A stretch of 29,809 nt of DNA from a virus, in the IMG/VR virus record IMGVR_UViG_3300032086_003258, positions 1 through 29,809 of that record, one strand, 5' to 3'. The position numbers were made by a program, and so were the translations under genes. Positions 13,349-29,690 of this stretch are shown here, piece after piece; position 1 is the first letter of the stretch; the number at the start of each line of letters is the position of its first letter. A model generated the notes under the pieces. The model searched no databases. It saw only the letters and a program-made list of their open reading frames with translations, and was not told where the DNA came from.

Positions 13349-14475
13349 TATCCGCCAACGCTTACATGCGATGTTTGCCCGCCACCGGCCCCGGCAATCT
13401 TGCCAGGCGAAAATGCGCCGAAGTTCGACTTTGTAACTGCCGCACCGCCGAATGGTATCGGTGCGGATTCGTATGCGTTCGCCGTCGATGCAATGCGGAA
13501 ATCGCCGCTTGCTGCGTCGTCGTATGGGCTGCTTGAATCGGTTGCATCGTCGCCGGTCAAATCGATACACGCTGCCGGATTTGTTGCGCCGCCGTTGTTT
13601 GTAGTGTTATTGTAAAAAGCATTCGGCCCGTTGATTGCGTTGTTACCGCCCGACGTAATATTGATTGCCGCGCCGCTGCTATCAACATTCGTAATAATGT
13701 TGTTTTGCACAACGTTAAACTCCGCACCGCTACCGATGTTTATGCCATCGCCAGTTGCACCGGTCGAATCATTAATCGTATTGTGTAAAATCCCGGTCGC
13801 GTCTTTAGTCGCATAAATTCCATTCTCACCGAATCCATTGATCACATTATTTATGATCGTATTGTAGGTCGTCGTGTTTGCGTTGATGCCATTGCCGCTA
13901 ACGTTCTTTATGTAGTTTCCGGTGCTGGTGCTTTGCCGTAGTTGCAACCCATCAACGCCCGTCCCGCCGTCATCGTGTATGTAACAGTTTACAACATGCG
14001 CGTCGCCTGATGCTACACCGCACAAGTATTGCCCGCTGCAATCGTACATTTCGCAATTGAACATCACCCAACCCTGATTGCGATTAATCAATGTGCCGGT
14101 CGTGCTGTGTATCTTCAATCCTTGGAAAATAATCCATTTTTCCAACGTGCCGCCGAATATGCTACTGATCGCATCGTTGCCATCAATCTCGGCTGCAACG
14201 ATTGTCTGCGCTACACCACCGACAGTCGGCATGGTGATTGTAATTGATCCGCCATTGTCCCAGGATCGTATCAACAACGGTGCGTCACGGGTCGCCGCGC
14301 CAAATGCGGTAAAGTTAAGTTGCGCCGATAAAACAAACGCCGCCGAATTGCTCAAATTAATAATATCGCCGCCGGTCGAACTATCCAACGCCTTTTGAAT
14401 CGTCGCAAACGGTGCGCCTGATGTGCCGGCGTTGGTATCGCTCCCGGTCGATGCATCAACATAATACTCGCTCAT
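13348..14475 (-). CDS. beta-helix tail spike-like protein
   Basis: The gene encodes 375 residues from the ATG overlapping the upstream stop. The start SEYYVDASTGSDTNAGTSG and FATIQKAL is typical of proteins with parallel beta-helix, pectate-lyase-like domains. It then shows many short repeats with N-rich turns (GNYIKN, GNGINA, NNVINGF, GDGINIG, QNNIIT), as in PbH1 repeats. Such proteins bind or cleave surface polysaccharides. Position at the end of the tail module fits a host-recognition spike. Enzymatic residues cannot be assigned. Confidence 0.78.
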   Translation of the reverse strand: MSEYYVDASTGSDTNAGTSGAPFATIQKALDSSTGGDIINLSNSAAFVLSAQLNFTAFGAATRDAPLLIRSWDNGGSITITMPTVGGVAQTIVAAEIDGNDAISSIFGGTLEKWIIFQGLKIHSTTGTLINRNQGWVMFNCEMYDCSGQYLCGVASGDAHVVNCYIHDDGGTGVDGLQLRQSTSTGNYIKNVSGNGINANTTTYNTIINNVINGFGENGIYATKDATGILHNTINDSTGATGDGINIGSGAEFNVVQNNIITNVDSSGAAINITSGGNNAINGPNAFYNNTTNNGGATNPAACIDLTGDDATDSSSPYDDAASGDFRIASTANAYESAPIPFGGAAVTKSNFGAFSPGKIAGAGGGQTSHVSVGG

Positions 14476-14735
14476 TAAACTGGCTCCCATCTAGGCTCAA
14501 CGTCTGGATCGAGCGAAACCGTATCTTCTGGAAATGTGTCAACATCGCCCGACCATAACCAAGCCGATTCTTCTACGTTGTCATGGTAAATCAAAAATAT
14601 TCGTTTAACGTCATCGCTGCGACTGATCGCCTGCACGCATCGAATTGTACCGACAACCTGAATAATAACGATGCCGCCGATGTCGACTTCCTGCTCTAAC
14701 GGCAATGGCGTGTTGCATAAATAGCTTTTGCTCAT
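14475..14735 (-). CDS. small hypothetical protein in the tail-fibre operon
   Basis: The gene encodes 86 residues, coupled by TAATG overlaps to the genes on both sides. It has a beta-rich core (EVDIGGIVIIQVVGTIR) and an acidic, Trp-containing C-terminus. It is not recognised; an accessory virion or fibre-assembly protein is plausible from context. Confidence 0.62.
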   Translation of the reverse strand: MSKSYLCNTPLPLEQEVDIGGIVIIQVVGTIRCVQAISRSDDVKRIFLIYHDNVEESAWLWSGDVDTFPEDTVSLDPDVEPRWEPV

Positions 14736-14944
14736 TAGCCGTGTATCCTTTTTAGTTGCTCGTGTAGCTTTTCGGTCGCCTGAAAAATCTCAATTTCCTG
14801 CAACGGCTTTTTGTCTGGTAGATTTTCGACCGCATCGGCCAACGCTTCAACGATCGAAACCATGCGATTGATTCGGTCAACTTTATCTTGCCCGGTGCCG
14901 ATGCGTTTACGCCTGCGCCTGGCTGCTTTCTTTTTGCTCGCCAT
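14735..14944 (-). CDS. small basic coiled-coil protein
   Basis: The gene encodes 69 residues with a highly basic N-terminus (KKKAARRRRKR) followed by an amphipathic helical region with heptad-like spacing. It is coupled by TAATG overlaps to both neighbours. The basic start suggests nucleic acid or membrane contact. Function unknown. Confidence 0.6.
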   Translation of the reverse strand: MASKKKAARRRRKRIGTGQDKVDRINRMVSIVEALADAVENLPDKKPLQEIEIFQATEKLHEQLKRIHG

Positions 14945-16605
14945 TAGTTGCCCTTCTTAACTTTGATCGTCAATGTAACTTCTGTGACCGTACTCGCCGA
15001 ATCGACCTCGAACCCTAACACGTCACCGGCTGCAATGCTTGTTGTCCAACCGGTCAACGTTTCATCCTGCGAACGCTGTGCGCTTGATAATGTCGCCGGG
15101 CTGCTTCCGGTAATGCTGTTTGCGTTGGTTGGTATTGCATCGGCGGCTTTCCATATATCAATTACGATCGACCCGCTTTGATCCGCTGCGACTTCTACTG
15201 ATTCAATCTCGCCGCTGTAAGGTACGGTCGGAAACTTACCCAACGCACCGGCAGTAATTGCACTGCCCGCGCCGTCAATGGTCAACGTGATTGCAGTTAA
15301 TGCCGCTTGCGAACTGTCAACGTTGTGGCGAACCAGGTGCGCGGTCAATCGCCTTACATCGTTCGAGGTGCCGTCATGCGCTTCGGCTTCGCTCATTACC
15401 GCGACCTGATTGTTGTATGCCGTCTCGATTTCGGCATCGGTCGGGTTGACTTCTGCGCCTGCCTCGATCCCGTCCAACTTGCTGCCATCCGTTGCAACGT
15501 CCCGGCCATCAACTGTACCGCTTACACCAATATTGCCCGTTACGTCTAACGCTTCGCTCGGTGTAGAATTAAGAATCCCGACTTTATCCGCGCTCGCGTC
15601 CATGTGTAAAACGCTGTTTTGCGTATCGCCATCAAGTATAAAATCCCAATCCTGATTCATCGGATTGTGCGTCACGGCTGCATCGTAAATGTAAAACCGC
15701 TTTGTTCCTGCCGGGTTAATCATTAGATCGGCCCCGGAAAACACGCCATCATCTAAAAACAAAGAACCCAGATCAACCGCGCCGGCATCGATCGTACCGG
15801 ATGCAGTAAGCCCTGCAACGCCTGTTAGGTTGTTTGAATCGTCGCAGGTGATGCCGCTGGCCTGCACGCCCTTCGCGCCGCCATCGCCTTTTACAATCGC
15901 ATTGTCGGCAATATTACTCGCCGCTGATACGTCACCGCCGCCGGCAATTGTGTCCCAGGTGACGCCTTCCGGGTCGGTGCTGTCTGCTTTTAAAAATTGC
16001 CCATCCGATCCAACCGGCAACCGCACGAAATCAGATCCATCGTAAACCAACAAATCGCCCAACGTTGTACCGGTCGAATCCTGTATGTACCGCGCATCCG
16101 ATTCGGTTTTTGTGTAATAACCTGGCGTTACCGTCGGGTTGGCAGGTGCATCGCCTATGCTCGACCACCGCACGTCGACCGGTTCGGCCAATGTCGTCAG
16201 GATCTCGCCACCGGTCGCAGTCAATTCGATTTCCAACCATGCTTCGCGGTATTCGTAATCCTGTAAGAAATCATCAAGATTGCTTGTGCTCAAATTGATC
16301 TCGAAATAGGCGGCCCCGGCTGATCCGTCGGTGATCGTCCAGGATTCGGTCAATGCCAGAAACGGTTCGGTGGCTGACTGCTCAAACCGCTCTTTTATGC
16401 CGGCGGTAAGGGTCGTTCCTGCCGGGATCGAGTACGTCGAAAAGCTGCCGTCGCCATAATCCTGCTCAACACATGACAACGTAAATCGGATTGTATCGCC
16501 TAAAAACAAGCGCAGCTTTTTGGCCGAAATTGCTTTGCCGTCGTCATCAACAAAAATGCCGTTTGTCGTATCCAATCCGATCTGATAATTGCGTAGTGCG
16601 CTCAT
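14944..16605 (-). CDS. tail fibre / receptor-binding protein
   Basis: The 553-residue protein has an N-terminal beta-rich domain resembling baseplate or fibre attachment regions, then a middle marked by GYYTKTESDARYI (about 162-174) and DGRDVATDGSKLDGIEAG, both common in modular phage tail fibres. Gly/Ala/Thr-rich repeat-like segments follow, and the C-terminal quarter is a separate beta-rich tip domain. It is encoded immediately downstream of a conserved promoter-like element (16612-16638). The TAAAGG of that element also serves as its ribosome binding site. Host binding is inferred. Confidence 0.78.
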   Translation of the reverse strand: MSALRNYQIGLDTTNGIFVDDDGKAISAKKLRLFLGDTIRFTLSCVEQDYGDGSFSTYSIPAGTTLTAGIKERFEQSATEPFLALTESWTITDGSAGAAYFEINLSTSNLDDFLQDYEYREAWLEIELTATGGEILTTLAEPVDVRWSSIGDAPANPTVTPGYYTKTESDARYIQDSTGTTLGDLLVYDGSDFVRLPVGSDGQFLKADSTDPEGVTWDTIAGGGDVSAASNIADNAIVKGDGGAKGVQASGITCDDSNNLTGVAGLTASGTIDAGAVDLGSLFLDDGVFSGADLMINPAGTKRFYIYDAAVTHNPMNQDWDFILDGDTQNSVLHMDASADKVGILNSTPSEALDVTGNIGVSGTVDGRDVATDGSKLDGIEAGAEVNPTDAEIETAYNNQVAVMSEAEAHDGTSNDVRRLTAHLVRHNVDSSQAALTAITLTIDGAGSAITAGALGKFPTVPYSGEIESVEVAADQSGSIVIDIWKAADAIPTNANSITGSSPATLSSAQRSQDETLTGWTTSIAAGDVLGFEVDSASTVTEVTLTIKVKKGN

Positions 16606-16611
16606 TGAAAA

Positions 16612-16638
16612 CCTTTATTAAAGCGCGATTTGTCCGCT
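16612..16638 (-). promoter_or_regulatory. conserved promoter-like element, copy 4 (before tail fibre)
   Basis: AGCGGACAAA (complement of 16629-16638), 11 bases, then TAAAGG (16612-16617). The 10-mer is identical at four structural-gene gaps and the spacing to the TATA-like hexamer is constant. Confidence 0.6.
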
Positions 16639-16645
16639 GTTTCGA

Positions 16646-17776
16646 TCAACTCGGTGCAGTAAAGTTTTTGCGGAATACTATAAATCCGTCAACTTGGTAA
16701 GAATACGTTCCGTCTGAATCGCTACAATCAATCGACAAATTCGCGCCCTGCGTTGGATCAACCGCATAATCACCATAATATGCGCTGGTATATGTTGCCG
16801 ATGCGTTTCCGGTCGTTGTTGTTATGTCGGTCATTGCGTTTTGTGTTTCGGCTGTATCAACAAAATCATCGCCACGATATACCACGAAATCACGCACATC
16901 AACATCGCTGCCAGTCGGTACGTCGGTAAATTCAAATTTACCGCGCACACGGTTGCCAGTCCATGTATGCGCTCCCGCTGGCGTTTCTTTTATCACGGTC
17001 GCACCAATCGAGCTACTGAATACGCCTGTACTCCATGTGCCAGGCCAGTTAGCTTGGAAACTTGCTAAAGTGGCTGCACACGTTGAACCGCTCAACGTTG
17101 TTGTTAGGTTTTTTTTATATCCTGAAACAATCGTACCACCTAATTGCGATAAAGCCCCGTTGTTTTGTATAACGCCATAAAACGCACAACTTTCCAGCAC
17201 TTTGCAAACCGCCCAAATCTGATTGACTATCGTTGCATCGATGCAATCGCGGGTTGCTTGCAATCCAAATGTTTGATCTAATACCTGCAACGGCCCGCGC
17301 TCGCCTGACGGTTTCCGGGTAAAAGGAATATTTGTACTATCAAATCCGTGCCAATTTGTACTATCAAGATCCTGCCCGGTAATGCCTGCCGCGCTTAATT
17401 CGGCATTTGCTAAACTGCACAAACGAGCAAACTTAGCTGTAGTTCCTTCATCGGCACGATATAAATGCACGTTTTCCATGCCCCTGCGGTTTACGTTAAA
17501 AAAGTCAGGAGTTATGCGGCCCGCTGTTATCAAATTCCAATCGACGCACTCCTGCACAATTAAACTTAGGCGATTCTGCAAGCCGTTCCAGAATGTTGGT
17601 AGATTCCAACAATCACCGGCGACCATCAATGGAAGATCGGCGGTCGTTCCGGTCGTCCCTGTTTCAAATTTCGTTCGCAGGTTATACCATGCCGTCAAAT
17701 CATTGACGTAATTCACCAACGCATTGTAATCGTCCAAATCGTTTAAACAGTCGGCGTCTGTTTTAGGAAAGGCCAT
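16646..17776 (-). CDS. putative tail structural protein
   Basis: The 376-residue protein has no membrane segment or signal. The N-terminal two thirds are mixed, with many aromatic residues; the C-terminal third is Thr/Ser/Gly-rich and beta-stranded (VRGKFEFTDV, VVYRGDDFVD, YQVDGFIVFRK). It is encoded between the tape measure and fibre genes, the usual place for distal tail or baseplate components. I do not recognise a family. The start ATG has only a weak upstream site and follows the previous stop closely. Confidence 0.65.
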   Translation of the reverse strand: MAFPKTDADCLNDLDDYNALVNYVNDLTAWYNLRTKFETGTTGTTADLPLMVAGDCWNLPTFWNGLQNRLSLIVQECVDWNLITAGRITPDFFNVNRRGMENVHLYRADEGTTAKFARLCSLANAELSAAGITGQDLDSTNWHGFDSTNIPFTRKPSGERGPLQVLDQTFGLQATRDCIDATIVNQIWAVCKVLESCAFYGVIQNNGALSQLGGTIVSGYKKNLTTTLSGSTCAATLASFQANWPGTWSTGVFSSSIGATVIKETPAGAHTWTGNRVRGKFEFTDVPTGSDVDVRDFVVYRGDDFVDTAETQNAMTDITTTTGNASATYTSAYYGDYAVDPTQGANLSIDCSDSDGTYSYQVDGFIVFRKNFTAPS

Positions 17777-17779
17777 TGT

Positions 17780-18250
17780 TTAAATCTTCGCTGGTATGCA
17801 ACCGTTGAACGGATATTCAAACACATAAACCAACGTCTGCCCGGTGTCGGCTGCATTGCGCACCAAATACTCATGAATCTGCGTGTATAGCACGTATCCA
17901 TCTGCCGGCCCTGATACGTCATTGGCTTCGATCGCTTGCCCTTCGCGGCCACCGTCGCCCGTGCTGATCACGCCCCAGTTATCGAGCGTATCGTCTGCCG
18001 GGTACAACTCGACGAAATCCCATTCATTATTGGCATTGTCCCAGGTCAACTTGCCCCAGAACGTCGTGTTCGTTTCGGTTAAACTGATCCGCGTACCGGC
18101 TGCCGTTTGCTGGCTCGATAATCCTGCGCCGGCGATCGCACGCGATGCAATGCACCAACGATAAAATCGCAGCATCCAAGGCAATATATCCTGCCCTGGC
18201 TTTGGTTCTTCCGGCGGTTGATTGCCTATGATCTGTTGGCTTGTTGGCAT
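17780..18250 (-). CDS. putative tail/baseplate protein
   Basis: The gene encodes 156 residues, coupled to the upstream gene by TAATG. It has a Pro-rich N-terminus (QPPEEPKPGQD), then a beta-rich region (FWGKLTWDNANNEWDFVEL). It is not recognised; position suggests a minor tail or baseplate component. Confidence 0.62.
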   Translation of the reverse strand: MPTSQQIIGNQPPEEPKPGQDILPWMLRFYRWCIASRAIAGAGLSSQQTAAGTRISLTETNTTFWGKLTWDNANNEWDFVELYPADDTLDNWGVISTGDGGREGQAIEANDVSGPADGYVLYTQIHEYLVRNAADTGQTLVYVFEYPFNGCIPAKI

Positions 18251-18927
18251 TATGTCGCGTTTGGATGCAAGTCTTCGTTCCAGGTGTCATCATTAAACTG
18301 CCACCGCCGATCAACCTTTGTAATTCCATCGCCCATTGATTCGGCAGTTATCGAAATCAAACACCATTTGTAATTGCTCGCGCCTGCGAGGTCGTATGCA
18401 GCCATCTGTGCGCCTGTGAACCGCTTGTTTACGTTTGTTGTGAGATTGGCTTGCGTCCAAGTCCAACTATCAACGTATTCGGTATGGGCGTATGTACTGC
18501 CGGCCACAAAAAACGTTTTCGCTCCGTCTTTGTAATCTGGATCGTTCGGGTCTAACCAACTGCCGCTAAAATTCGCGTTCTGTTCCAACGGATATTCGCT
18601 GACGCTCGAATCGGCCCGCTGCACTTCCGTTCCTGCCGCCGGAACGTCTTTAAACCTTGTTTGACTTGTTGCAACGTCCGGTAGTGCATAGGTCAAAACC
18701 GCTTCGCCCCGGTCTTTTTCCCAGGTTGTCTCGATGCTTTGTAGCTTTAACGCTGCGGTGCCAGGATGTGCATCGCCTCGGGTGTATGATGCAATAAATG
18801 TCGAGTAAGCGGCTTCGGTGCCGTTCCAGGTTTCCTTAATCACCGCCGCATCTGCGCCGCCGCCTTCGCCTTCGGTGATCGCGGTTTTTTTCTTAACCCA
18901 TGTACCTGTTCCAATTCGATCTGCCAT
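18250..18927 (-). CDS. putative distal tail protein
   Basis: The gene encodes 225 residues immediately after the tape measure gene, the usual location of distal tail proteins. It is beta-rich with many Trp and Tyr residues and ends with a KVDRRWQFNDDTWNEDLH segment. No family is recognised. The stop overlaps the next start (TAATG), indicating coupled translation. Confidence 0.62.
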   Translation of the reverse strand: MADRIGTGTWVKKKTAITEGEGGGADAAVIKETWNGTEAAYSTFIASYTRGDAHPGTAALKLQSIETTWEKDRGEAVLTYALPDVATSQTRFKDVPAAGTEVQRADSSVSEYPLEQNANFSGSWLDPNDPDYKDGAKTFFVAGSTYAHTEYVDSWTWTQANLTTNVNKRFTGAQMAAYDLAGASNYKWCLISITAESMGDGITKVDRRWQFNDDTWNEDLHPNAT

Positions 18928-18929
18928 GG

Positions 18930-19958
18930 CTAAAACGTCCCGGTTTCAATGTCGATGTTTTCGGTCGCATCCGCGCCGCGCTTTGTTTGCGTTTCAATGT
19001 CTTGCAATTTCTTCACTACTTTATCATTCGACGCATCTAGCTTCTGCAGGAATGCGGCGGCCATTGCATCTTGCGTCGGTGTCAATGGCTTCGGCTTTAC
19101 CTGTTGGAAAGCTGTTGTTTGCAATTCGCCTTTGCCGATTGCTCGCCGTTGTTTAAAAAATTCAATCATTGATTTTGTGGTAGCATCACCGCCGGTCATT
19201 TCGCGCCTCATTAATTCGTCAAATGTTTCCTGCGCTGCAACCGTTATTGCGCCTAATTCTTCAAACGGTCGCGCAATAGCAAGTAGTACATTAGCCGCAA
19301 ACGATTTTGCTCCGGTAGACATTTCCGACAATGTGCGATTAATGCCTGAAGCCTTTTCAATAAATTCTTCATCGATAATACCGCCGGCTTTTCGTACCTG
19401 CTCAATAAATGCCGGTAAACCTATATTAGCGATCGTCATTAAAACCGTATTGACTTCGCGCAAATTGCGGCTCCCTAATATCTTTGACGCCTCGCTGAAA
19501 TTCTTTGTTTCCTTCAAACCCTTTGCGAATTTGTCGAACAACTCCGGCAATGTGTCCTGGTTCAAATCTTCGATCGAAATGCCCAACGCCTTAAAACTTG
19601 CGATCGCTGCCGCATTGCCCTGTCTTGCCGCGTCTACTTTCAATCGTAATTCGCTGAACGTATTAATTGCCGCATTGATCGTGCCGCCGCCTATTTCGAC
19701 CTCGCGCAAAAAAGCCTGGTACAGATCGGTTGATTGCCCGACCTTCGCCGCTGCGTTGCCGATGTCTTCGGCTTCATTGATCAAACCGCGTAACCCTGCG
19801 CTTAATGCCCCAACGCTAAACGCTGCACCAATCTGCCCTTGCATGCTTCGCAGTCCCTTGCGTAGCTTGCTGGTTTGCTTCTCAACGTCCTGGATGCCTT
19901 GCTTGGCACCCTTGGTATCAAAATCGATCCCGCCTTTAATTAATGCTCTAAACGCCAT
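18930..19958 (-). CDS. short tail tape measure protein
   Basis: The 342-residue, largely alpha-helical, Ala/Lys-rich protein starts with a pattern usual for tape measures (ALIKGGIDFDTKGAKQGIQD, then coiled segments and a short hydrophobic GAAFSVGALSAGL). It lies directly downstream of the tail-assembly protein, overlapping it by 11 bases, which is the standard gene order. Tape measure length sets tail length; at this size the tail would be short for a siphovirus. Its identity rests on composition and gene order. Confidence 0.72.
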   Translation of the reverse strand: MAFRALIKGGIDFDTKGAKQGIQDVEKQTSKLRKGLRSMQGQIGAAFSVGALSAGLRGLINEAEDIGNAAAKVGQSTDLYQAFLREVEIGGGTINAAINTFSELRLKVDAARQGNAAAIASFKALGISIEDLNQDTLPELFDKFAKGLKETKNFSEASKILGSRNLREVNTVLMTIANIGLPAFIEQVRKAGGIIDEEFIEKASGINRTLSEMSTGAKSFAANVLLAIARPFEELGAITVAAQETFDELMRREMTGGDATTKSMIEFFKQRRAIGKGELQTTAFQQVKPKPLTPTQDAMAAAFLQKLDASNDKVVKKLQDIETQTKRGADATENIDIETGTF

Positions 19959-20571
19959 TGTCGAACCTCTCTAGCATATCCGGTGCAAATCGCTTGTACA
20001 AGTCGGTAAATACTTCCGGTGTGATTGCCGCCTCGTTTTCGGTTTTCAATGTATCATCGCCATTAATTGCGCCTTCAACCGTAGCAAATACCAACGCATG
20101 CCGCACCGGTGTATCCATCGCCCCGATCAATGCCTGCGGCGTCAATTGCTTACCCATCAAACGCCAGGCCAGACCCAGTATGCCCGGTGCACGAAATTCG
20201 CCGCGATCGTTGTCGTTCCATCTCGCCGGCCCTTGGCAATGAAAACTGATGTACTGCTCAAATTTGCTGAACTCTATATCAAATCTGGTGCGAGCAAATC
20301 GTTGCTTTATGCCCCAAATGAACGCCTGGCGGTGCAATGATTTTGGCAGACCATCAACAATGTATTTTTGCAGGTCGGCCCATTTTTGCCGGCAGACCCA
20401 AACCGCAAACACCAAATCATTGAGGCCAATTTCGCCGCCTTTGTAGCCCGTTGCAAATGGACTCTCCGCGCACTCTAAAACCCAAACATGGCCCAGCGTC
20501 AACGGTCGCAGGTTGACACCTAAAACGCGCTCGGTCTGAATAAAGAAAGCATCGCGGTAGAAGTCCTGCAC
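19948..20571 (-). CDS. putative tail assembly chaperone
   Basis: The gene encodes 207 residues from a GTG start, between the tail tube and tape measure genes, the position of tail assembly chaperones. It is helical with many aromatic residues (GHVWVLECAESPF, WAWR-like segments). I see no clear slippery site or longer frameshifted product. Family assignment is from synteny only. Confidence 0.6.
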   Translation of the reverse strand: MQDFYRDAFFIQTERVLGVNLRPLTLGHVWVLECAESPFATGYKGGEIGLNDLVFAVWVCRQKWADLQKYIVDGLPKSLHRQAFIWGIKQRFARTRFDIEFSKFEQYISFHCQGPARWNDNDRGEFRAPGILGLAWRLMGKQLTPQALIGAMDTPVRHALVFATVEGAINGDDTLKTENEAAITPEVFTDLYKRFAPDMLERFDNGV

Positions 20572-20580
20572 GACATTACT

Positions 20581-21057
20581 TTACGAGGTGGCATCAATTG
20601 CGGTTGTCATGCCGTCCTTGCGCTGCAATGTCAGGCTGATCCGGCTCGGCTCGCCCTGCGTGACAGTAAATGATTTGCTTGCGCTGGTAGCAATGTATTT
20701 GACCCAGTCGGAGTTATTGTGGCTGACTTCAACCAGTTGACCCATGTTTACGCGCACATTGTAGGCAATTGTCTGATCGCCTACGCCCGGCGTGCCCGGA
20801 ATGCTAATGATGCCGTTGACCGTTATTTCATGGCCTTTCCCGCTAACGATCGCGCTGGTTGGATCGCCGTTTTCGTCGAGGTTTTCTGCGATCTCGCCCA
20901 ATGAATTGTCGCCGCTGTCCTGCACCACAACCGCCAGGTAAGTATTCGTTCCGGCGTCCCAGATTCCATCCGCGCCCCAACTGCCGTCAGTCCAACGAAG
21001 ATATTTAGCCGGCCCTAAGCCGATGTCGTGTATTTGTCCTATTTGATCTGCTGCCAT
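20581..21057 (-). CDS. major tail tube-like protein
   Basis: The 158-residue beta-rich protein (ITVNGIISIPGTPGVGDQTI, YNVRVNMGQLVEVSHN, SRISLTLQRKDG) is encoded right before the chaperone and tape measure genes, fitting the major tail protein of long-tailed phages. It has its own promoter-like element upstream (21073-21099), as expected for a highly expressed structural gene. Assigned by context, size and strand pattern. Confidence 0.65.
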   Translation of the reverse strand: MAADQIGQIHDIGLGPAKYLRWTDGSWGADGIWDAGTNTYLAVVVQDSGDNSLGEIAENLDENGDPTSAIVSGKGHEITVNGIISIPGTPGVGDQTIAYNVRVNMGQLVEVSHNNSDWVKYIATSASKSFTVTQGEPSRISLTLQRKDGMTTAIDATS

Positions 21058-21072
21058 TTTTAAAACCTCAAT

Positions 21073-21099
21073 TCTATATTATACTGCATTTTGTCCGCT
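21073..21099 (-). promoter_or_regulatory. conserved promoter-like element, copy 3 (before tail tube)
   Basis: AGCGGACAAA (complement of 21090-21099), 11 bases, then TATAGA (21073-21078). A TATAAT also overlaps the spacer. It begins in the stop codon of the previous gene and serves the tail tube gene. Confidence 0.6.
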
Positions 21100-21559
21100 A
21101 TGCCGGGTCGCTCGGCATACATAAAAGCGCACCGTTTAAACTACTGATCCGAAATTCGCCGCTATCATCGTCGTCAACTTCGCTTGCAACCGTCAATGGA
21201 TCCCATCCGATTGCATAAAAATCGCCAATATCTTCCGCATTCATCAAACCCGGCCAATCATCCATGCATCCAACCAATTCATCGCGCACCTTTGCGACCA
21301 TGGTATTATGATCGGCTGTTGTCGTTTGCGGTATTGCGCTTTTGATAATCACCACCAAATCGACCAAATAGTTGCCGGTGCGATCCGGGCTGACGGCTGC
21401 ACTAAATGCGCCTACGCTAATATATGGATACGAAATGGATCCATCGTCGTACAAATTATACACATTGAATCCGGTTAAATCCGATGCAAGCGCTGTTTCT
21501 AATGCCGATTTGCATGCCTCAGATGCCTTTTCTTCAATCAAATGGTATGGTGCTGGCAT
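21098..21559 (-). CDS. putative tail terminator/completion protein
   Basis: The gene encodes 153 residues located between the neck proteins and the tail tube, where tail terminators lie. It has an N-terminal helix followed by strands (VDLVVIIKSA, GEFRISSLNG). No family motif is evident, so the name is from gene order. Confidence 0.6.
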   Translation of the reverse strand: MPAPYHLIEEKASEACKSALETALASDLTGFNVYNLYDDGSISYPYISVGAFSAAVSPDRTGNYLVDLVVIIKSAIPQTTTADHNTMVAKVRDELVGCMDDWPGLMNAEDIGDFYAIGWDPLTVASEVDDDDSGEFRISSLNGALLCMPSDPA

Positions 21560-21566
21560 AATCTTA

Positions 21567-22208
21567 TCACTTTACGCTGATTTTTCGGCTGTTCTCGCGG
21601 TTCTTTCGATCGATGTATTTAATCATATCGCGCCGAACGGTTTCTTTGCCCTGGTTCAATGCTCGTTGCTGAATCGCCTGCTTTTGCTTTTCGTCGATTC
21701 CATTTGTTGCACCGCTCGATAGATCAAACTGCGTGCGTATCATTTTTGGATGCGCCTGCAAAACAACGGCCTTTGTCTGCTTGTGTCGATCGCGTCTATT
21801 CGAACTCGGTGCTTTACCGGCTCGAAATTCGCCGCTGTCGATGAATTTGTTTTTGCCTTTAACAAATGAACTTTGCAGATAACCAACGCTTGCAAGTCGG
21901 CGTTTTAATGCTTTGACCGCTTCGGCCCAATCGCTCGAATCGTCGATCTGCCCCGGTCCCATGCCTTGCCCGCGATCCCATGCACCGCGCCCGTATTTCT
22001 TGTTTAGATACCAGGTTATAAAACGCGGGTTTTCGATCGTTCGTTTGATTGTCTCGCGCCGTGCTTTTGGAATGTGCCGAATCGATCGCCATAACCAGTC
22101 ACGGCTTTTGTCATTGCAAACCTGCGCCGCGTCTTTATTCGTCCAGGCCAAATATTGCCCCATTGCCCGGTCGAATTCTTTCGTATCCAAATAAGCTTTG
22201 CTGCTCAT
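21567..22208 (-). CDS. putative minor tail/neck protein
   Basis: The gene encodes 213 residues starting at an ATG that overlaps the upstream stop (ATGA); a start four codons earlier is possible. The protein is basic, with many Arg/Lys and a helical C-terminus. Position after the head-closure candidate resembles HK97 gp10-type neck or minor tail proteins. I see no diagnostic motif. Confidence 0.6.
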   Translation of the reverse strand: MSSKAYLDTKEFDRAMGQYLAWTNKDAAQVCNDKSRDWLWRSIRHIPKARRETIKRTIENPRFITWYLNKKYGRGAWDRGQGMGPGQIDDSSDWAEAVKALKRRLASVGYLQSSFVKGKNKFIDSGEFRAGKAPSSNRRDRHKQTKAVVLQAHPKMIRTQFDLSSGATNGIDEKQKQAIQQRALNQGKETVRRDMIKYIDRKNRENSRKISVK

Positions 22209-22519
22209 CGCTTCACACAAGCTATATCACGGCAAACGCCTAAACCGTCATCTATTATCTCGCTGATCCGATACGTCACCGAATCAAACACCAACGAATC
22301 GCCCAACGCTGGCAACGATCCGGTATAATCCGCATCGAGTACAGTAATGCGTAGGTCGGCGTCTGCCTCGAATCCGAACTCGGTGGCATCTCTGGCATCG
22401 CGCGGAAATTCTGCAACGCACCTTTTCGCCGCGCCGCCATCGATCGCGCACGTTTGCGCCAAGTCGGTCATCACGCCAATTAAATCGGCTTTACGCATTG
22501 CGTTGCTATCTGCTGCCAT
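22205..22519 (-). CDS. putative head closure protein
   Basis: The gene encodes 104 residues. A helical N-terminus is followed by a beta-rich part (LRITVLDADYTGSLPALGD and VTYRISEIIDDGLG) typical of small head-closure or stopper proteins, which connect portal and tail. It is the first gene after an intrinsic terminator, and overlaps the next gene by 4 bases. Family is inferred. Confidence 0.6.
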   Translation of the reverse strand: MAADSNAMRKADLIGVMTDLAQTCAIDGGAAKRCVAEFPRDARDATEFGFEADADLRITVLDADYTGSLPALGDSLVFDSVTYRISEIIDDGLGVCRDIACVKR

Positions 22520-22532
22520 CGTTTATTCCTAT

Positions 22533-22561
22533 AAAAAAACCTGCCAAGCGAACCTGGCAGG
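22533..22561 (-). terminator. rho-independent terminator after the capsid genes
   Basis: On the minus strand, CCTGCCA and TGGCAGG form a perfect 7-bp stem with an 8-base loop, followed by seven T residues. It lies between the small protein gene downstream of the capsid and the head-closure gene. It would limit read-through from the abundant capsid message into the tail genes. Confidence 0.8.
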
Positions 22562-22591
22562 CTGCGAGCAAAACCCGCCGGAGATAGATTT

Positions 22592-22897
22592 TTAGTCGTC
22601 GATTAAATCGACGTGTTTAGTATCGTTATTGTTCGCCGGCGTGCTGCCTTTTAATTTGCTTGCCGTCCTGTTCGGCTTAAATGATTTGCCTAGACCGTGC
22701 TTGTCGATAATTTGTATTTCGTCAACGTTCGGGCCTTTGCCGGCGATCGTTGCGGCTACGATGTCATCAAACTTTGCCCGTGCTTCAACTGGTGATGCGA
22801 AACCGTCCGCTGATACCTTGCCGCCTTTGATCGTAACAAGTACCGCCGGCTTTACTTTGCCGGCTGCTGCTGCTGCTGTCTTTTTTTTCGTTGCCAT
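22592..22897 (-). CDS. small Lys/Ala-rich protein downstream of capsid
   Basis: The 101-residue protein has a MATKKKTAAAAAGK start, the Ala run encoded by a GCAGCA-type repeat, then LVTIKGGKVSADGF and a C-terminal basic segment ending in an acidic tail. It is encoded just after the major capsid gene and before the terminator, a usual position for decoration or head-completion proteins. Not recognised. Confidence 0.62.
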   Translation of the reverse strand: MATKKKTAAAAAGKVKPAVLVTIKGGKVSADGFASPVEARAKFDDIVAATIAGKGPNVDEIQIIDKHGLGKSFKPNRTASKLKGSTPANNNDTKHVDLIDD

Positions 22898-22913
22898 AAT
22901 AATGATCCTGATA

Positions 22914-22941
22914 CCGCCGGCAGTTATTACACCGCCGGCGG
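22914..22941. other. GC-rich hairpin after the capsid gene
   Basis: CCGCCGG (22914-22920) pairs with CCGGCGG (22935-22941) around a 14-base loop. There is no T-run, so it is not a normal terminator; it might stabilise the capsid mRNA 3' end or slow read-through. Confidence 0.4.
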
Positions 22942-22959
22942 CATCATGTCAATCATTGC

Positions 22960-23847
22960 TTAGGCAGATACGATGCGCTCGATGCCTGCGGCGATGCCAA
23001 CGGCTTTGCCCCAGTTACATTCAAGCGTCATGTACATATCGCCTGTTTCCGGCAGGTAGAACTGACGAAGTCCCAGAACTGCGCCGGTGTCGGGATCGCT
23101 CAACGCTTCGGCGCGAACATATCCGTTGTTGTCCTGCGGCTCGAGATAGCGCATGGCAACGGCAATTGCGGATGAATTGCAAGCAAATCCAACCAGGTTC
23201 TCACCATTCGCGGGAACGGCAGTTGATTCGTAAACACGGAATCCGAAAAGATTCGGAATCAATCCGGCCTGGATGCCCTGATCGGTGCCGTACTGGTTCG
23301 CGCTTTTAATCGCGGTGTCTTTCAGAAGCGCGTTGTAGTATGAGCTGGAAAGAACCAGACCGCGTCCGTTCATCGGCATCAATCCGGTGTCGCATGCGTC
23401 TTTAATATCAACGATATCTTCGGAATCAAATGCGCTTGCTGCGCCGGTGTGAGCCGCTGCGCCATAATTGGCGTTGGTGACAACTGCCAAAACGTTCTGA
23501 AATACGCTCTTTGCAAGATCCGCACCCATCTGCGTACCCAACTGCTCGAGATCGGCGACGGTGTTTTTCTTTTCAATGTCGCTCAACTTAGCGGTGACAA
23601 ACTCGTGCTGATCAACCGTTACCGAAACGTCAGAAATAGTTTCGTCTGCGCCGGTCGTGTAGTCGCCCGCGAACGTAGTAACCGCGCCGCCGCCGGTGTA
23701 CAACGGAACATGAACTGTCTTGCCGCGCTGCGAAATTGCGCCACCGAAATCGGTGCTGAATGTGTTAAGCGGTGCCAAAAAGTCGGTAAAGCCCTGGAGC
23801 GCCGCTTGACTCCATGCTTCAACTGTTAATCCTGATGCGATAGCCAT
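22960..23847 (-). CDS. major capsid protein
   Basis: The 295-residue protein has a P22 coat/N4 gp56-like HK97-fold profile: an N-terminal helix (EAWSQAALQGFTDFL), a strand-rich region with KTVHVPLYTGGG, VTVDQHEFVTAKLSD, an A-domain with GRGLVLSSSYYNALLKD, and a C-terminus ending NWGKAVGIAAGIERIVSA. It lies immediately downstream of the coiled-coil scaffold gene. Its base composition and codon choice look different from neighbouring genes, consistent with high expression. Identity is supported by gene order and pattern. Confidence 0.82.
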   Translation of the reverse strand: MAIASGLTVEAWSQAALQGFTDFLAPLNTFSTDFGGAISQRGKTVHVPLYTGGGAVTTFAGDYTTGADETISDVSVTVDQHEFVTAKLSDIEKKNTVADLEQLGTQMGADLAKSVFQNVLAVVTNANYGAAAHTGAASAFDSEDIVDIKDACDTGLMPMNGRGLVLSSSYYNALLKDTAIKSANQYGTDQGIQAGLIPNLFGFRVYESTAVPANGENLVGFACNSSAIAVAMRYLEPQDNNGYVRAEALSDPDTGAVLGLRQFYLPETGDMYMTLECNWGKAVGIAAGIERIVSA

Positions 23848-23871
23848 TTTTCTTTATTCCTTATTTGTTGT

Positions 23872-24321
23872 TTAGTTCAGTCGGGCTGCTGCCGCGAAAA
23901 GCTCTGCTTTGTGTTTGCGCCACCGACGGGTTTTTTCGTCGGCATCTTTGAGACTTAAGAATTGCTTAAGCATTTCGTTGTCGGTCGGCTCGCCGCCATC
24001 TTTGACGGGATCGCCGCCGGTAGTTGCGTTTTCGTATGCCGGGTGCTCGAGAGCTTTGGCCTGTTCTGCGTTTTTCTCAGTCGCTTCGGCCAGCTCAGAT
24101 TCAAGCTCTTTGACTTCTTCGATGCGCTCGGCGTTTTCGGTTTCAAGCTCGGCGACCTTGGCTTGCAAGGTTTCCAGTTCGGCTTTTGCTTCGTCGCGCT
24201 CGGTTTCCGCGATCTGTAGCAATTCGATCTGATCGCTCAAGTCAGCTTTTGCCGCTTCAACGGCTGCCTCGGCCTGTTCAAGCTCTTGCGCGATGGTCAA
24301 TTCTTCTTTTTGTTCGTCCAT
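23872..24321 (-). CDS. capsid scaffolding protein
   Basis: The 149-residue protein is nearly all coiled coil: repeated Glu/Ala/Leu heptads to about residue 90, then a flexible Gly/Pro region and a basic C-terminus (KTRRWRKHKAELFAAAARLN). This layout is typical of internal scaffolds whose basic tail contacts the coat protein. It is encoded between the S49 protease and the major capsid gene. A promoter-like element lies 37 bases upstream. Confidence 0.8.
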   Translation of the reverse strand: MDEQKEELTIAQELEQAEAAVEAAKADLSDQIELLQIAETERDEAKAELETLQAKVAELETENAERIEEVKELESELAEATEKNAEQAKALEHPAYENATTGGDPVKDGGEPTDNEMLKQFLSLKDADEKTRRWRKHKAELFAAAARLN

Positions 24322-24357
24322 TATTATACCTTTTTCTGGTTTTGGGCAAACAATGCC

Positions 24358-24384
24358 CTTATACTTACAACAAATTTGTCCGCT
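24358..24384 (-). promoter_or_regulatory. conserved promoter-like element, copy 2 (before scaffold/capsid)
   Basis: AGCGGACAAA (complement of 24375-24384), 11 bases, then TATAAG (24358-24363). It lies in the largest gap of the head module, and would drive scaffold and capsid transcription. Confidence 0.65.
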
Positions 24385-24388
24385 TTTG

Positions 24389-25225
24389 TTATCCGCGCCG
24401 TGCGGCCAATGTTTTTGCGTCCATCAAAACCTGGTCAAACGTCGCGATTGAATCAATTAATCCTAATGTTTTCGCCCGGTTTGCAGTAAAAACCTGCCCT
24501 TGCATTGTTTCCGAATCGATGCCGCCCCGGGTCGCGTTTACAAATGACGTGAACTGGTCGTTTAATTCATCAACCAGACCTTGCATATACTCGCGCTGTT
24601 CGTCGCTCAACTCGGTGCCAGGATAACCGGCGGCTTTCAATCGGCCCGCTTTGAATAGCTCAACCTTAACGCCCTGCATTTCGACCGCCCGCGTTTGATC
24701 GAGTATGGCGATGTATGTCCCGATCGATCCAACCATTGCAGACTCGCTGGCATAAATGGCGGTTGATCCGCTCGCCATGTAATACGCTGCAGATGCCATT
24801 AATCCATCGGCATACGATATGATCGGCTTGCGCTTGCTCGCCTGACGTATGTAGCTCGCCACTTCCGGCGTACCCATGCCGCTGCCGCCCGGCGAATCGA
24901 ACGTCAAAACCAACGCTTTGACTTCATCGTCTGACATGGCCTGTTCAACCAGTCCGATTACATCTTCGACGCCAACCGCACCGCATCCGCGTTCCAACTG
25001 GCTAATTTTGCGCGAAATAACGCCTTCGACGTTGCCGATTGCAACGCCATCTTGCACCGCCAATTCCGGCGGGTCGGCCATATATTGATCTATTGCGGCC
25101 TGCGTCGGGTCAATGCCCGATACATGCGCGTTGAATGTATCGCATAGAATCTGGTGCGCTTCGGCGGTTATCATCGCCGGCTCGCAATATAGCTTTTGCG
25201 CTATGCGCGGAAAATCACTGATCAT
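24389..25225 (-). CDS. S49-family prohead protease
   Basis: The 278-residue protein resembles the SppA/SohB-like peptidase family that many lambda-like phages use to mature the head. FDSPGGSG (109-116) and GLMASAAYYMASGS (141-154) give the nucleophile Ser145, and AGRLKAAG contributes the predicted catalytic Lys197. It lies between portal and scaffold, as for lambda gpC, but here the scaffold is a separate gene instead of a nested product. Start overlaps the portal 3' end by 11 bases. Confidence 0.9.
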   Translation of the reverse strand: MISDFPRIAQKLYCEPAMITAEAHQILCDTFNAHVSGIDPTQAAIDQYMADPPELAVQDGVAIGNVEGVISRKISQLERGCGAVGVEDVIGLVEQAMSDDEVKALVLTFDSPGGSGMGTPEVASYIRQASKRKPIISYADGLMASAAYYMASGSTAIYASESAMVGSIGTYIAILDQTRAVEMQGVKVELFKAGRLKAAGYPGTELSDEQREYMQGLVDELNDQFTSFVNATRGGIDSETMQGQVFTANRAKTLGLIDSIATFDQVLMDAKTLAARRG

Positions 25226-26711
25226 CGTCTAATTCCAATTCAATTTGTTCGTTGTCTTGCTTAACGACCTCGCCCGGCTTCGTAACCTGAATCAACTCGC
25301 GCCAATCAACGTCAACGCCCGTCTCCGTCTTAATCCGCTGCGATTCTTTGATTGCAACGATTATATCATCGCCTTTTTCGCCCAATGTCGCGTCGGTGGT
25401 CGTTCCGGCCCGGCGGTTGATCTGCGTCAATGACAAGTTGCCCAACCGGAAGCCGCTTTCGTTCGCTGTAGCGGTGTCTTTCGGATTGCCGAATTGCATT
25501 TCAGGCAATGACCATTCGACTTTGTACCAACTGCTGCGCCCGTTCGGCATGGTCGGTGCCGGCGGTATCTCGCCGTCGCGAATCGCCATTGCAATACGCC
25601 ATTCCCATACGCGCTGCAAAAATTCTTCGATAATCCATGCACCGTACATCTCAAACGATCGCACGACCGCTTGCTGTGCCGCCCGGCTTGCGCTAAAACT
25701 GCCTTTTTTGAAGTCGAGCAACAAAAAGTCATATGGTATCCGGGTCGCCGATGCGATCAAACGCAATACCATTTCGCAGTATTGTACGTACTGCGGATTC
25801 GGCGTAGCACTGGCAAATGAATCGATCTTTTCGCCGGGGTTCAGGTAGTAATTCGCGCCGAAATCGAACGTTTCGTATATCGGCCCGGTGCCGCCCGAAC
25901 CGCCTCGCGGCGTACTCATGGGATTAGGCATTGCACTCGCGCCGCCTTCTTTCGTGATAACATGCCCGGTCGCGGCGTCCATCTTCGCTTTAATCAACTG
26001 CGCTTCCTGCAATTCGTCGAAATCGATTAATGTTTTGCAGATCGGGTAAATTTCCGGTGTCGATCGTACCTTTTCAAAGCGTAATTCAGGACATGCAACC
26101 AATCGGCCCGCCGCTACTTGTCGATAATCGTACTTGTTCCGATCGATCCGGCCCCGATCGTCCCGGCGCAATATGTAATGGCCTAATGTCTGCCCTTCGG
26201 CGTTCAATCGCACACCTTCGATCACGCGCTTGTCGTCTTTGAAATCGTTCGGCGTACCAATCCGGTCGGCTTCGATTGGCTGAATCTTGCCGTTCTGGGT
26301 AAACAACGGCAACATATCGCCCATAAAAAGCCTGGCTTGCACAACCAGCTTTTGCATCTCGCGCATGTTCAATCGACCGCGATGATCCGGTGAACGGCTC
26401 CAATCGTTCCAAAAATCTTCGGCTGTTTCGTTCCAGGTGTTATCACTTGTTTTTGCCTGCGGTCGAATCCCTTGCGGCCCGACCACGTTGTCGGCGATTC
26501 GACTGCTTAAACTACTGACAATCGGATTCGACCGCGCCTGATCCAATGCCTCAAGCCGCATCATTTCAAGCGAACGTGTTCCGATCAGTTGATCTTCCGG
26601 CAATGGCTGCGATCGATAGCCGGCCTGCTGTTTACGTCGGGTCGTTCGCTCGTAGTAAGTATTCGTCATGTCCGGGATCGGCATGCCGCGCTTATCAAGT
26701 ATTTTGCTCAC
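25215..26711 (-). CDS. portal protein, lambda gpB-like
   Basis: The 498-residue protein follows the lambda portal family: N-terminal YYERTTRRKQ, then LEALDQARSNPIVSSLSSRIADNVVG, a KVRSTPEIYPI segment, and RIPYDFLLLDFKKGSFSASR (about 336-355) near the central helix. The dodecameric portal forms the DNA channel and the terminase dock. The start is GTG, overlapping the stop of the gpW-like gene (GTGA). The end overlaps the protease gene. Confidence 0.92.
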   Translation of the reverse strand: MSKILDKRGMPIPDMTNTYYERTTRRKQQAGYRSQPLPEDQLIGTRSLEMMRLEALDQARSNPIVSSLSSRIADNVVGPQGIRPQAKTSDNTWNETAEDFWNDWSRSPDHRGRLNMREMQKLVVQARLFMGDMLPLFTQNGKIQPIEADRIGTPNDFKDDKRVIEGVRLNAEGQTLGHYILRRDDRGRIDRNKYDYRQVAAGRLVACPELRFEKVRSTPEIYPICKTLIDFDELQEAQLIKAKMDAATGHVITKEGGASAMPNPMSTPRGGSGGTGPIYETFDFGANYYLNPGEKIDSFASATPNPQYVQYCEMVLRLIASATRIPYDFLLLDFKKGSFSASRAAQQAVVRSFEMYGAWIIEEFLQRVWEWRIAMAIRDGEIPPAPTMPNGRSSWYKVEWSLPEMQFGNPKDTATANESGFRLGNLSLTQINRRAGTTTDATLGEKGDDIIVAIKESQRIKTETGVDVDWRELIQVTKPGEVVKQDNEQIELELDDDQ

Positions 26712-26944
26712 CGGTACGGACTCCCATCTAAACGCCTGCCGCTGAAATCGCTTGTGCTGCGCGATCCGAACTGGTCAACGTGTACGCGCTGCCGGTATTT
26801 ATCGACCATCCGCTCTAAAACGGTGATGCTGGTCTTTGTAAATGTCTTGCCCATTACGGAATAGGACACATTCGCACCGCCTGCCAGGATCGTTTCTAGT
26901 GCGTACTCGTACTCCTGCAACCATTCTTCGTTAGTTTTTGCCAT
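26708..26944 (-). CDS. gpW-like head-tail joining protein
   Basis: The gene encodes 78 residues from ATG 26944. Two helices flank a beta hairpin (GANVSYSVMGKTFTKTSITV), as in lambda gpW, and the gene is in gpW's place between terminase and portal. gpW completes the head by plugging the portal. A conserved promoter-like element ends four bases upstream, so any transcript from it would have a very short leader. Confidence 0.75.
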   Translation of the reverse strand: MAKTNEEWLQEYEYALETILAGGANVSYSVMGKTFTKTSITVLERMVDKYRQRVHVDQFGSRSTSDFSGRRLDGSPYR

Positions 26945-26947
26945 AAG

Positions 26948-26974
26948 CCTATACATATGCCGAATTTGTCCGCT
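26948..26974 (-). promoter_or_regulatory. conserved promoter-like element, copy 1 (before gpW/portal)
   Basis: AGCGGACAAA (complement of 26965-26974), 11 bases, then TATAGG (26948-26953). It is the first copy in the direction of transcription of the head genes. Confidence 0.6.
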
Positions 26975-26979
26975 TTTGG

Positions 26980-27267
26980 CTAAAACGCTTGCTTAACTAC
27001 CTTGGTATATTTGATCCATTGCCACCCTAGATCGTCAACTATGTAGCCCGGTTTGCCTATGATTGCCGTAAAAACATCGCTGATTTGATGCCGGTCGGCT
27101 ACCTTTTCGGCGTATTTCCGGCCTCGCGCTGACCATAAAACCACGTCGAATCCTTTGTTGCGCTTCGTTTTTGCCCATTCGATCAGCGGTTTGTTTAACT
27201 CGCCACCGATTAACAAGGTGCCGTCGATGTCAATGCCGATGCTTTTTGTCGGTGCGTATTTAGACAT
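26980..27267 (-). CDS. HAD-like phosphatase
   Basis: The 95-residue protein has the haloacid dehalogenase motifs in compact form: IDIDGTL (Asp13, Asp15), VVLWSARG (motif II Ser47), GKP (Lys72) and VDD (78-79). There is no cap domain. Similar small enzymes process nucleotides, polynucleotide 3' phosphates or phosphoproteins. Finding one between large terminase and gpW is unusual and suggests a link to packaging or simple insertion. Overlaps the terminase gene by 8 bases. Confidence 0.82.
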   Translation of the reverse strand: MSKYAPTKSIGIDIDGTLLIGGELNKPLIEWAKTKRNKGFDVVLWSARGRKYAEKVADRHQISDVFTAIIGKPGYIVDDLGWQWIKYTKVVKQAF

Positions 27268-29053
27268 CAAGCAACCTGGTATTAAATCCCATCATTTCCG
27301 CGCCTAATATCGACATCACCTCGCAGTCGAATGCATGCTCATCGCGCCGGCCTTTTTTGCAAGTCCATGCTTCTTTTTCCGGGTCGTAATGCATCGCTGT
27401 GACCTGGTCGGTGTAGCTTTGACGGCCAATCGGTGCATTGTGCGGTATAAACCAAGGAAATGGGCATTTCACGGCGTTTTTTTCTTCGTCCAATGTGTAG
27501 CCATTCATCCGATCCATTAATTGCCGCCGGAATGCGTCCGAATCGTATTGGATCAACTGCACGCTCTGCCCGTATTGCTGCCGCTTCGTTCCTTCCCATG
27601 GGTTGATGCTTTGCTGATTCCATAGTTGCCCGATCCGGCTTGCACCGCGGCCCATGCATGGTACAAACTGCAATTCGCTCGACATCTGGTAAACTTCCTG
27701 CGTCCTTTCGCCATACGCCGCGTCAATGATCGCCGGCCATATCGTCATTTCCTGCACGTAATCGGCCAACTCCTGCCACGTCGCCATGGTGCTAAACTCA
27801 ATCAATGCACTTGCCCCGCCTCGCTGCCATTCCCGCGCCAATACCCAAAAATGCGTCTTTTGCACGTCGATCGAGATAATTGTTCGCACGTCATCGCCGG
27901 CGGTGTCGCCTTTGATGTTGAACATGTCCCGGCCCCAGTCGGTCGCGCTTGGTCGCTGGCCCCAATCATAATTGGCCCGGCGGCTTTTCAATTCTTCATC
28001 GCCAACGTCAATCTTTTCCTCGATGAACGGTTCGGCCAATGTATTCTGGATCCATCCGCGCAATTCGTTCGGTTTGTCTTTAACCTGTAGAAACTGCCTG
28101 ACGATGCTGTACGGGCTGCCCGATTCCCAGGTACTTAACCAACGCGGAAAATGAAAACTCGCCCGGTCGTATGTTTCCGGGTCGCAGGTCGCTCGCCATT
28201 CGCCATCTTCGAGCATTTCGTTTTTTTCATGCCCGCTGATCTTGCCCTTGCAATGAATACACTCGATGTATGCGCCCTGTGCCGCATCTTCGATCGGCAA
28301 TTTGCTGTCGAATTTGAACGCCTGCCAACGGATAACCTGCATTTCATTGCAATGAATACACGGAACGTAATATTCGCGCCGATCGCCCTTCTGCCATTCC
28401 TTGTGCACCACGCCGCGCTCGGTGGTCGGCGTGCATGGTAATAAAACAAGGTGATTCCATAGCGTGGTCGTGCGTTCCATTAACAGCATCAATGGCGTAC
28501 TTTCGCCGGCTAATACGTGCGGATACTTGTCTGGTTCATCGATCAAAAGCATTCCGAATGTATCACTTGCCAACTGGCTTGCGTTGTTCGTGCCTAACCA
28601 CGTCACGGTCATGCCGCGCATCTGCTGTTCTAGCTTTTTGAAATCGTCCGGGTTGTCTGGCTTTTGCGCGGCGATCACCGGCGAATCTTCAATCATTGGA
28701 ATAAAGACCTTTTCGGCTTTTTTCCGCGCCTGGTCAACGCTCGGCATCGTAATGCCACATGGCACTTGATCGTTGCAAATCTTATGCAGGACAACGATAT
28801 AACAGGCCAACGTCATTCCAGCTTGTGCGGCTTTTTGGATCGTAATATGCCGCTTTTCGCCTTTTTGCGCTGTTTCGAGTATGCCCCGGATTGCCGGCGT
28901 GTTTCGCGTATCGTACAAACCTGGTGCCGCCGGGCTAACTTTGCCCGATAGATACACGTTCTTTTCGGCCCATTGCCAAATCAATTCGCTCGGCGGCGGT
29001 GCCAATGCCGGAAAAAAACTGTCTTGCAATCGTCTGGCGTGGTAGTCACTCAT
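27260..29053 (-). CDS. terminase large subunit, lambda gpA-like
   Basis: The 597-residue packaging motor belongs to the lambda gpA (GpA) family. It has a deviant Walker A (IQKAAQAGMT, 72-81), Walker B GMLLIDEPDKYP (167-178), and two CIHC pairs (232-235 and 265-268) that make a zinc site. The C-terminal nuclease domain starts with ISIDVQKTH. It cuts concatemers at cos and translocates DNA through the portal. This family produces 5' cohesive ends, supporting the cos reading of the contig ends. Overlaps the small terminase by 8 bases. Confidence 0.95.
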   Translation of the reverse strand: MSDYHARRLQDSFFPALAPPPSELIWQWAEKNVYLSGKVSPAAPGLYDTRNTPAIRGILETAQKGEKRHITIQKAAQAGMTLACYIVVLHKICNDQVPCGITMPSVDQARKKAEKVFIPMIEDSPVIAAQKPDNPDDFKKLEQQMRGMTVTWLGTNNASQLASDTFGMLLIDEPDKYPHVLAGESTPLMLLMERTTTLWNHLVLLPCTPTTERGVVHKEWQKGDRREYYVPCIHCNEMQVIRWQAFKFDSKLPIEDAAQGAYIECIHCKGKISGHEKNEMLEDGEWRATCDPETYDRASFHFPRWLSTWESGSPYSIVRQFLQVKDKPNELRGWIQNTLAEPFIEEKIDVGDEELKSRRANYDWGQRPSATDWGRDMFNIKGDTAGDDVRTIISIDVQKTHFWVLAREWQRGGASALIEFSTMATWQELADYVQEMTIWPAIIDAAYGERTQEVYQMSSELQFVPCMGRGASRIGQLWNQQSINPWEGTKRQQYGQSVQLIQYDSDAFRRQLMDRMNGYTLDEEKNAVKCPFPWFIPHNAPIGRQSYTDQVTAMHYDPEKEAWTCKKGRRDEHAFDCEVMSILGAEMMGFNTRLLDV

Positions 29054-29690
29054 CGTCGAAAATCTTTGTTTTGCTCAATGTTTCCAAGATCCGGTCGATT
29101 TCCGTTTGTAGCTTGTTTTTCGCGTCGATCGGCTTTTCGATGCCAACCATTTGAGGTGCCAATTTGACCGGGATGGATCGCAGTCCCGTCTTAACTTCGG
29201 CGGCCAACTTCGACATGATCCGTTCGGCGATCTCAACGCGCACTAAAATCCGCTCCTCTTCCAATATCTTGCCCGCATTGTTTTCCATTTTTCGCAGGTG
29301 TTCGGCGTATTCGCGCCAATTCTTTTCTGCAATGGCCACGTCGCCCTGGCTGCCTGTTTCCCGTTCCTGCTTTACGATGTTGTATGCGCTCAATTCCATT
29401 TGTCGCGCCCGCTCCAATTGATCGGCAAACGTGCTGCCGCTGCTTTTGGGTATTTCGCCGCCAGTCGGTGGTAAAACGTGCTGCGGTTGATTAACCTTCA
29501 ACCATTCGATCACGTCTGATTCTTTGAATAGCTTTGCCGCCCGTCCCGATCCGGTTTTTTTGTTCGGCTGCTCCTTCATGCCGTTTTTGGCCCAATGCAG
29601 CACGGTTTTATGCGTCACGTTGTACCGCTTCGCCAATTCTGCGCCGGTCAAAAGCGGGTCTTTTTCGGTGCTTTCCGTTTCGTTTTCCAT
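29046..29690 (-). CDS. terminase small subunit, Nu1-like
   Basis: The 214-residue protein begins with a winged helix-turn-helix (LTGAELAKRYNVTHKTVLHWAKNG, about 14-37), then SGRAAKLFKESDVIEWL, as in lambda Nu1. A long helical region with charged heptads follows, for oligomerisation and contact with the large subunit. It recognises cos DNA. Its strong AAGAGGTGAG ribosome binding site and its start 60 bp from the putative cos end match lambda's layout. Confidence 0.88.
   Translation of the reverse strand: MENETESTEKDPLLTGAELAKRYNVTHKTVLHWAKNGMKEQPNKKTGSGRAAKLFKESDVIEWLKVNQPQHVLPPTGGEIPKSSGSTFADQLERARQMELSAYNIVKQERETGSQGDVAIAEKNWREYAEHLRKMENNAGKILEEERILVRVEIAERIMSKLAAEVKTGLRSIPVKLAPQMVGIEKPIDAKNKLQTEIDRILETLSKTKIFDDE

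Follow-up and report, generated by a model that had tools for sequence, protein, structure and literature searches.

The window examined here, the whole 29,809-nt stretch of DNA of an uncultured phage, carries on its minus strand an early cluster in the order helicase, methyltransferase, primase, exonuclease, SSB-like gene and a small, putative helix-turn-helix gene (183-485). Across the ends of the molecule this last gene is followed by terS, terL and the gpW-like, portal, protease, scaffold-like, capsid, tail and fibre genes, down to position 10040. Noncoding DNA amounts to only 384 bases in the block 10040-29690. An 11-nt direct terminal repeat, GCGCGCGAACC, is present at both ends (left copy 47-57, right copy 29740-29750), and an Illumina adapter (AGATCGGAAGAGCACACGTCTGAACTCCAGTCAC, 29751-29784) directly follows the right copy. 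We read the repeat, which ends exactly at the adapter, as a natural terminus beside terS, probably of cos type, so that the genome of about 29.7 kb is probably complete. The 25 nt after the adapter, up to the window end, are unrelated sequence, and the window also seems to open with 46 nt of foreign DNA. An inverted repeat (TTGTACATATTTGTACAA) within 29691-29739, just before terS, is a possible operator. Family searches of the genome with PHROG and Pfam detected no RNA polymerase, the phage type included, as already noted in the original prediction, and no full sigma factor.

A two-part element in four gaps of the structural operon

An exact search found exactly four copies of the 10-mer AGCGGACAAA in the window, all on the minus strand and at the places first reported, each in a gap between genes of the structural operon and each followed, after exactly 11 nt, by a TATA-like hexamer. 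All genes and elements described below are on the minus strand and are given in the direction of that strand. The box of site 4 (26965-26974) starts the series, 5 nt past the TAG of an ORF at 26980-27270. Its hexamer TATAGG (26948-26953) lies 3 nt before the ATG at 26944 of a gpW-like head-tail gene (26708-26944); we took this ATG as the start, the ATG at 26956 of the ORF list falling inside the site 4 element. Portal (25215-26711) and protease (24389-25225) genes follow, both assigned by PHROG. The site 3 box (24375-24384) is located 4 nt past the protease stop codon, and its hexamer TATAAG (24358-24363) 36 nt before a scaffold-like gene (23872-24321) without family match, after which comes the major capsid gene (22960-23847, Pfam PF25209). 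The site 2 box (21090-21099) overlaps the upstream TAG stop, and its hexamer TATAGA (21073-21078) precedes by 15 nt a putative tail-tube gene (20581-21057) without family match. One further gene (19948-20571) separates the latter from the tape measure gene (18930-19958, PHROG). Finally, the site 1 box (16629-16638) and its hexamer TAAAGG (16612-16617) stand before a tail-fibre-like gene (14944-16605), 6 nt from its start, whose product resembles tail fibre or other structural proteins in PHROG and tblastn searches. Two of the gene names proposed at the outset are kept here as tentative: 'gpW' reflects a sub-threshold Pfam match (E 0.075, below cut-off) and 'tail tube' gene order.

A terminator-like hairpin, with an 11-bp stem and a T run (22538-22563, minus strand), occupies the gap 22520-22591, between sites 3 and 2, and would explain why a promoter is needed inside the operon. 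Next to the capsid gene, on its downstream side, the gap 22898-22959 contains one TTGACA-N17-TAATAA site, the sole ordinary-looking promoter in the late gaps. Genes of the early cluster (gaps 1745-1764, 2967-3005 and 5746-5767) share a ribosome-site context, GAGATAGAA, which is absent from the four genes after the boxes.

As originally claimed, the number of copies exceeds chance: 0.07 were expected and none of 100 shuffles reached four. Recurrence alone is unimpressive, because other 10-mers, mostly coding words, also recur four or five times in the window; counting both strands, 18 words of 10 nt have at least four same-strand copies. Copy number by itself is thus not decisive. What distinguishes AGCGGACAAA is that it is the sole one of these 18 words with every copy in gaps. 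Accordingly, a 10-mer common to four of eight gaps arose in none of 3000 simulations of the gaps, and an 8-mer common to as many with P = 0.002. For a TATARG-like block to recur at one constant distance within 35 nt downstream of the box, the chance probability is about 0.0005. When the window was scanned for further copies with a matrix of the site, the four sites scored 29-32 bits and the next one 12.2 bits, shuffled sequences giving top scores of 13.1 on average. The next-best site, at 12 bits, is therefore background; the scan gave no fifth copy, and no box before terS.

Across the four sites the 10-mer is invariant and the -10-like part looser, while positions 11-21, between box and hexamer, are unconserved. 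All sites also have in common a weak G-N-G pattern (P about 0.005-0.02), which precedes the box by about 14 nt and lies in the coding sequence of the preceding gene. A literature search for the 10-mer returned, among the matches listed, none related to phage promoters.

Promoter-like sites in the corresponding gaps of related phages

We searched viral contigs with the portal, TerL, MCP, helicase and primase proteins, and genome contigs by TerL and primase alignments. Together these searches gave only two useful relatives: G016 (32.1 kb), the best one found (primase 43%, helicase 44%, exonuclease 48%), and G001 (TerL 33%, protease 44%). Verrucomicrobia phage P8625 is also related (helicase 36%, capsid 27%). 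No close relative carrying AGCGGACAAA was found in the collections searched, and none of the relatives found shares the box. An exact scan of viral contigs gave 14 matches, nearly all single-copy and 13 of them inside open frames of at least 80 codons, which were rejected as chance. In the TerL alignment with roseophages, none of 80 distant loci held a multi-copy motif family, and no comparable repeated gap motif was recognised in G001, G017 or roseophages CRP-406 and CRP-831.

Promoter-like elements of another type were recognised in two of the relatives. G016 has four [TG]TGAC[AT]-N17/18-TATA[GT]T sites, 6-8 nt before an ATG (28748, 28209, 22763 and 14278), and P8625 has three TTG[AC]CA-N17-TATTGG sites, 7 nt before an ATG (5412, 9620 and 10736). 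These strict patterns had no match in shuffles, although they were drawn up with the sites already in view; they were used since a looser search for TTGACA/TATAAT gave no clear excess over shuffled sequence, G001 being slightly above it. In P8625 the form TTGACA-N17-TATTGGATACnnn-ATG, near-leaderless, is repeated in structural gaps, with weaker sites at 15558 and 17499; a text search of the paper describing that genome found no mention of promoters. The -10 elements of G016, at 6-8 nt from the ATG, suggest leaderless mRNAs for genes of its structural operon.

In G016, one site is found ahead of the gene next to portal on its upstream side (weak gpW match, E 0.022) and is the counterpart of site 4 of the window; one P8625 site has an equivalent place relative to portal. 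From gene order, the G016 site at 22763 appears to correspond to site 2, at the junction that leads into the tail-tube block. The elements of the window thus resemble these sigma70-type promoters in the gaps they occupy, notably before the gene preceding portal, and in their short distance to the ATG. They differ in sequence and spacing: in the relatives TTGACA is placed 17-18 nt from the -10, whereas in the window 11 nt separate AGCGGACAAA from it. As the window contains no strict G016-class site, against four in G016, gaps with plain promoters in the relatives here carry the new element.

Resemblance to known phage switches and a candidate factor

The four sites have no TTGACA-like hexamer 16-18 nt from the -10, unlike sigma70 promoters. 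A sigma70 consensus scan gave no match at the four boxes, its match at 24349 lying downstream of box 3, and loose sigma70-type matches in the window numbered only two, equal to chance expectation. A closer likeness in layout is found in the middle promoters of T4, where MotA boxes, at 12±1 bp from the -10 and centred at -30, replace the -35 element, and where a good sigma70 -10 (TATAAT) is needed (PMC2988021). The window likewise has a box of about 10 bp in the place of the -35, with 11 bp to a -10-like element at all four sites. Its box sequence is unrelated to that of T4, in contrast, and its elements serve structural genes. Moreover, the -10 is imperfect, with no T at the sixth position of TATAGG, TATAAG, TATAGA or TAAAGG, and the PHROG and Pfam scans of the genome named no MotA or AsiA family.

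The P2 late-promoter activator site is a dyad and lies farther upstream. The mechanism proposed below would share with P2/Ogr and Mu/Mor-C promoters the use of a phage activator with host RNA polymerase at phage genes. It would differ from them in the site itself, dyad and farther upstream in those systems (PMC4390567 places the centre of the Mor site at -43.5), whereas the box of the window is single and asymmetric and overlaps the -35 region.

The genes of the Ltr/RinA late regulators of Gram-positive phages are described as the last before terS, and Ltr acts at only one promoter, through direct repeats (PMC13123087). The putative helix-turn-helix gene at 183-485 (minus strand, 100 aa) is placed like those of the RinA/Ltr/ArpU regulators, at the end of the early cluster with terS next across the terminal repeat, which makes its product a candidate late regulator. 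No RinA-, Ltr- or ArpU-type family matched this protein in PHROG, Pfam or NCBIfam, however, and the box is present at four internal gaps instead of before terS. The protein matched PHROG 17233, a family of unknown function (E 0.0019), and in Pfam only HTH_36 (E 0.035); a PDB sequence search gave no match. A stretch resembling the helix-turn-helix of sigma region 4, SYRAMEARLGVKKSRIRSLVLELEQRY, was noticed by eye. An AF2 model made without alignment had a core pLDDT of 80-91, and a fold search with it against the PDB returned mostly sigma factors as top matches, with E 0.7 or worse. The modelled resemblance to sigma region 4 is therefore weak and not statistically significant. As a box-binding factor this protein would be the best candidate, and it is to be taken as a lead.

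A probable phage-specific promoter class for virion genes

Taken together, the single strand, the location in gaps, the fixed spacing and the promoters of another type in the corresponding gaps of relatives indicate that the four elements are most probably promoters. A promoter class is likely, and a dedicated recognition factor plausible. The original prediction went further and invoked one protein recognising both parts of the element. This part is less well supported: since no full sigma factor or polymerase was detected in the genome, a box-binding factor acting with the host sigma explains the data equally well or better. The -35 region is where sigma region 4 normally contacts a promoter. 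Because the box sits at this position, close to the placing of the MotA box, we favour host polymerase together with a phage factor, most likely the 183-485 protein, and give this reading a rough probability of 0.55. TATARG, at about -12 to -7, would be the -10 element opened by host RNA polymerase, and AGCGGACAAA, at about -33 to -24, would replace the host -35 element. A factor that the phage encodes and produces ahead of the late phase, likeliest the putative helix-turn-helix protein encoded last on the early strand before terS, would bind the box, and polymerase would start at the four gaps only once this factor appears. Promoter activity, late timing and use of the host polymerase are all inferred here; 'late' fits the genes served, which are structural.

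Some observations weigh against this reading. TATARG has no T where a sigma70 -10 is expected to have one, at -7, and a start 6-7 nt past the TATAGG of site 4 falls at or just inside the ATG. Nor does a box precede terS, although this is the place at which known late regulators act. Transcripts from site 4 and site 1, at 3 and 6 nt from their ATG, would be nearly leaderless. Such a design may be usual in this group of phages, by analogy with the G016 and P8625 promoters, which are also 6-8 nt from the ATG.

Alternatively, the phage could exploit a host stress or developmental sigma factor, with no factor of its own, the elements being promoters with an AGCGGA-like -35 and a TATA-like -10 about 15 nt apart. 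The spacing from AGCGGA to TATARG is indeed 15 nt, within the range for several alternative sigma factors, and the lack of a detected full sigma factor in the phage genome is compatible with this. We know of no sigma factor with an AGCGGA-like -35, and G016 and P8625 have ordinary TTGACA-type promoters in the corresponding gaps, which argues against this possibility; we consider it unlikely. Binding sites without promoter function, such as operators silencing late genes or signals for packaging or recombination, would account for a 10-mer more constant than the -10-like part and for the overlap of site 2 with a stop codon. Nevertheless, the strict single-strand orientation, the fixed TATARG and the placing before gene starts are typical of promoters, and the four sites have no conserved palindrome, so that we hold such a role to be improbable.

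Still more doubtful is a motif that begins at or close to the stop codon of the preceding gene and works in the RNA, for example by restarting translation, directing mRNA processing or causing antitermination. The boxes do start between -2 and +7 nt from the upstream stop codon, and the TAAAGG of site 1 could double as a Shine-Dalgarno sequence. Yet no common RNA fold was found (z-scores +0.6, +0.5, -1.8 and -0.4), Rfam gave no match, and distances from TATARG to the ATG as variable as 3, 36, 15 and 6 nt do not fit a common ribosome site. A T7-type single-subunit RNA polymerase starting at G or A after TATA is very improbable: TATAGG, TAAAGG and TATAGA look like the part of T7, T3 and SP6 promoters at which transcription initiates, but no gene for it was detected by PHROG and Pfam in this apparently complete genome, and such promoters are conserved next to TATA, where positions 11-21 are here unconserved.

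Only in few phage groups has the switch to late genes been worked out in detail. With host polymerase and a phage box-binding factor as the preferred reading, this compact phage would have a whole promoter class unlike the one that its relatives use in the corresponding gaps. One candidate protein can be named, so that the replacement of the host -35 by a phage's own box becomes a testable question. More speculatively, this phage may belong to a lineage whose members, small and tailed, otherwise use plain host promoters in the structural operon, and may itself have swapped the -35 of several of these promoters for a new box read by a minimal, 100-residue sigma-region-4-like protein. Such a late switch, akin to sigma appropriation and extending over four internal promoters, would then have evolved outside the T4 group.
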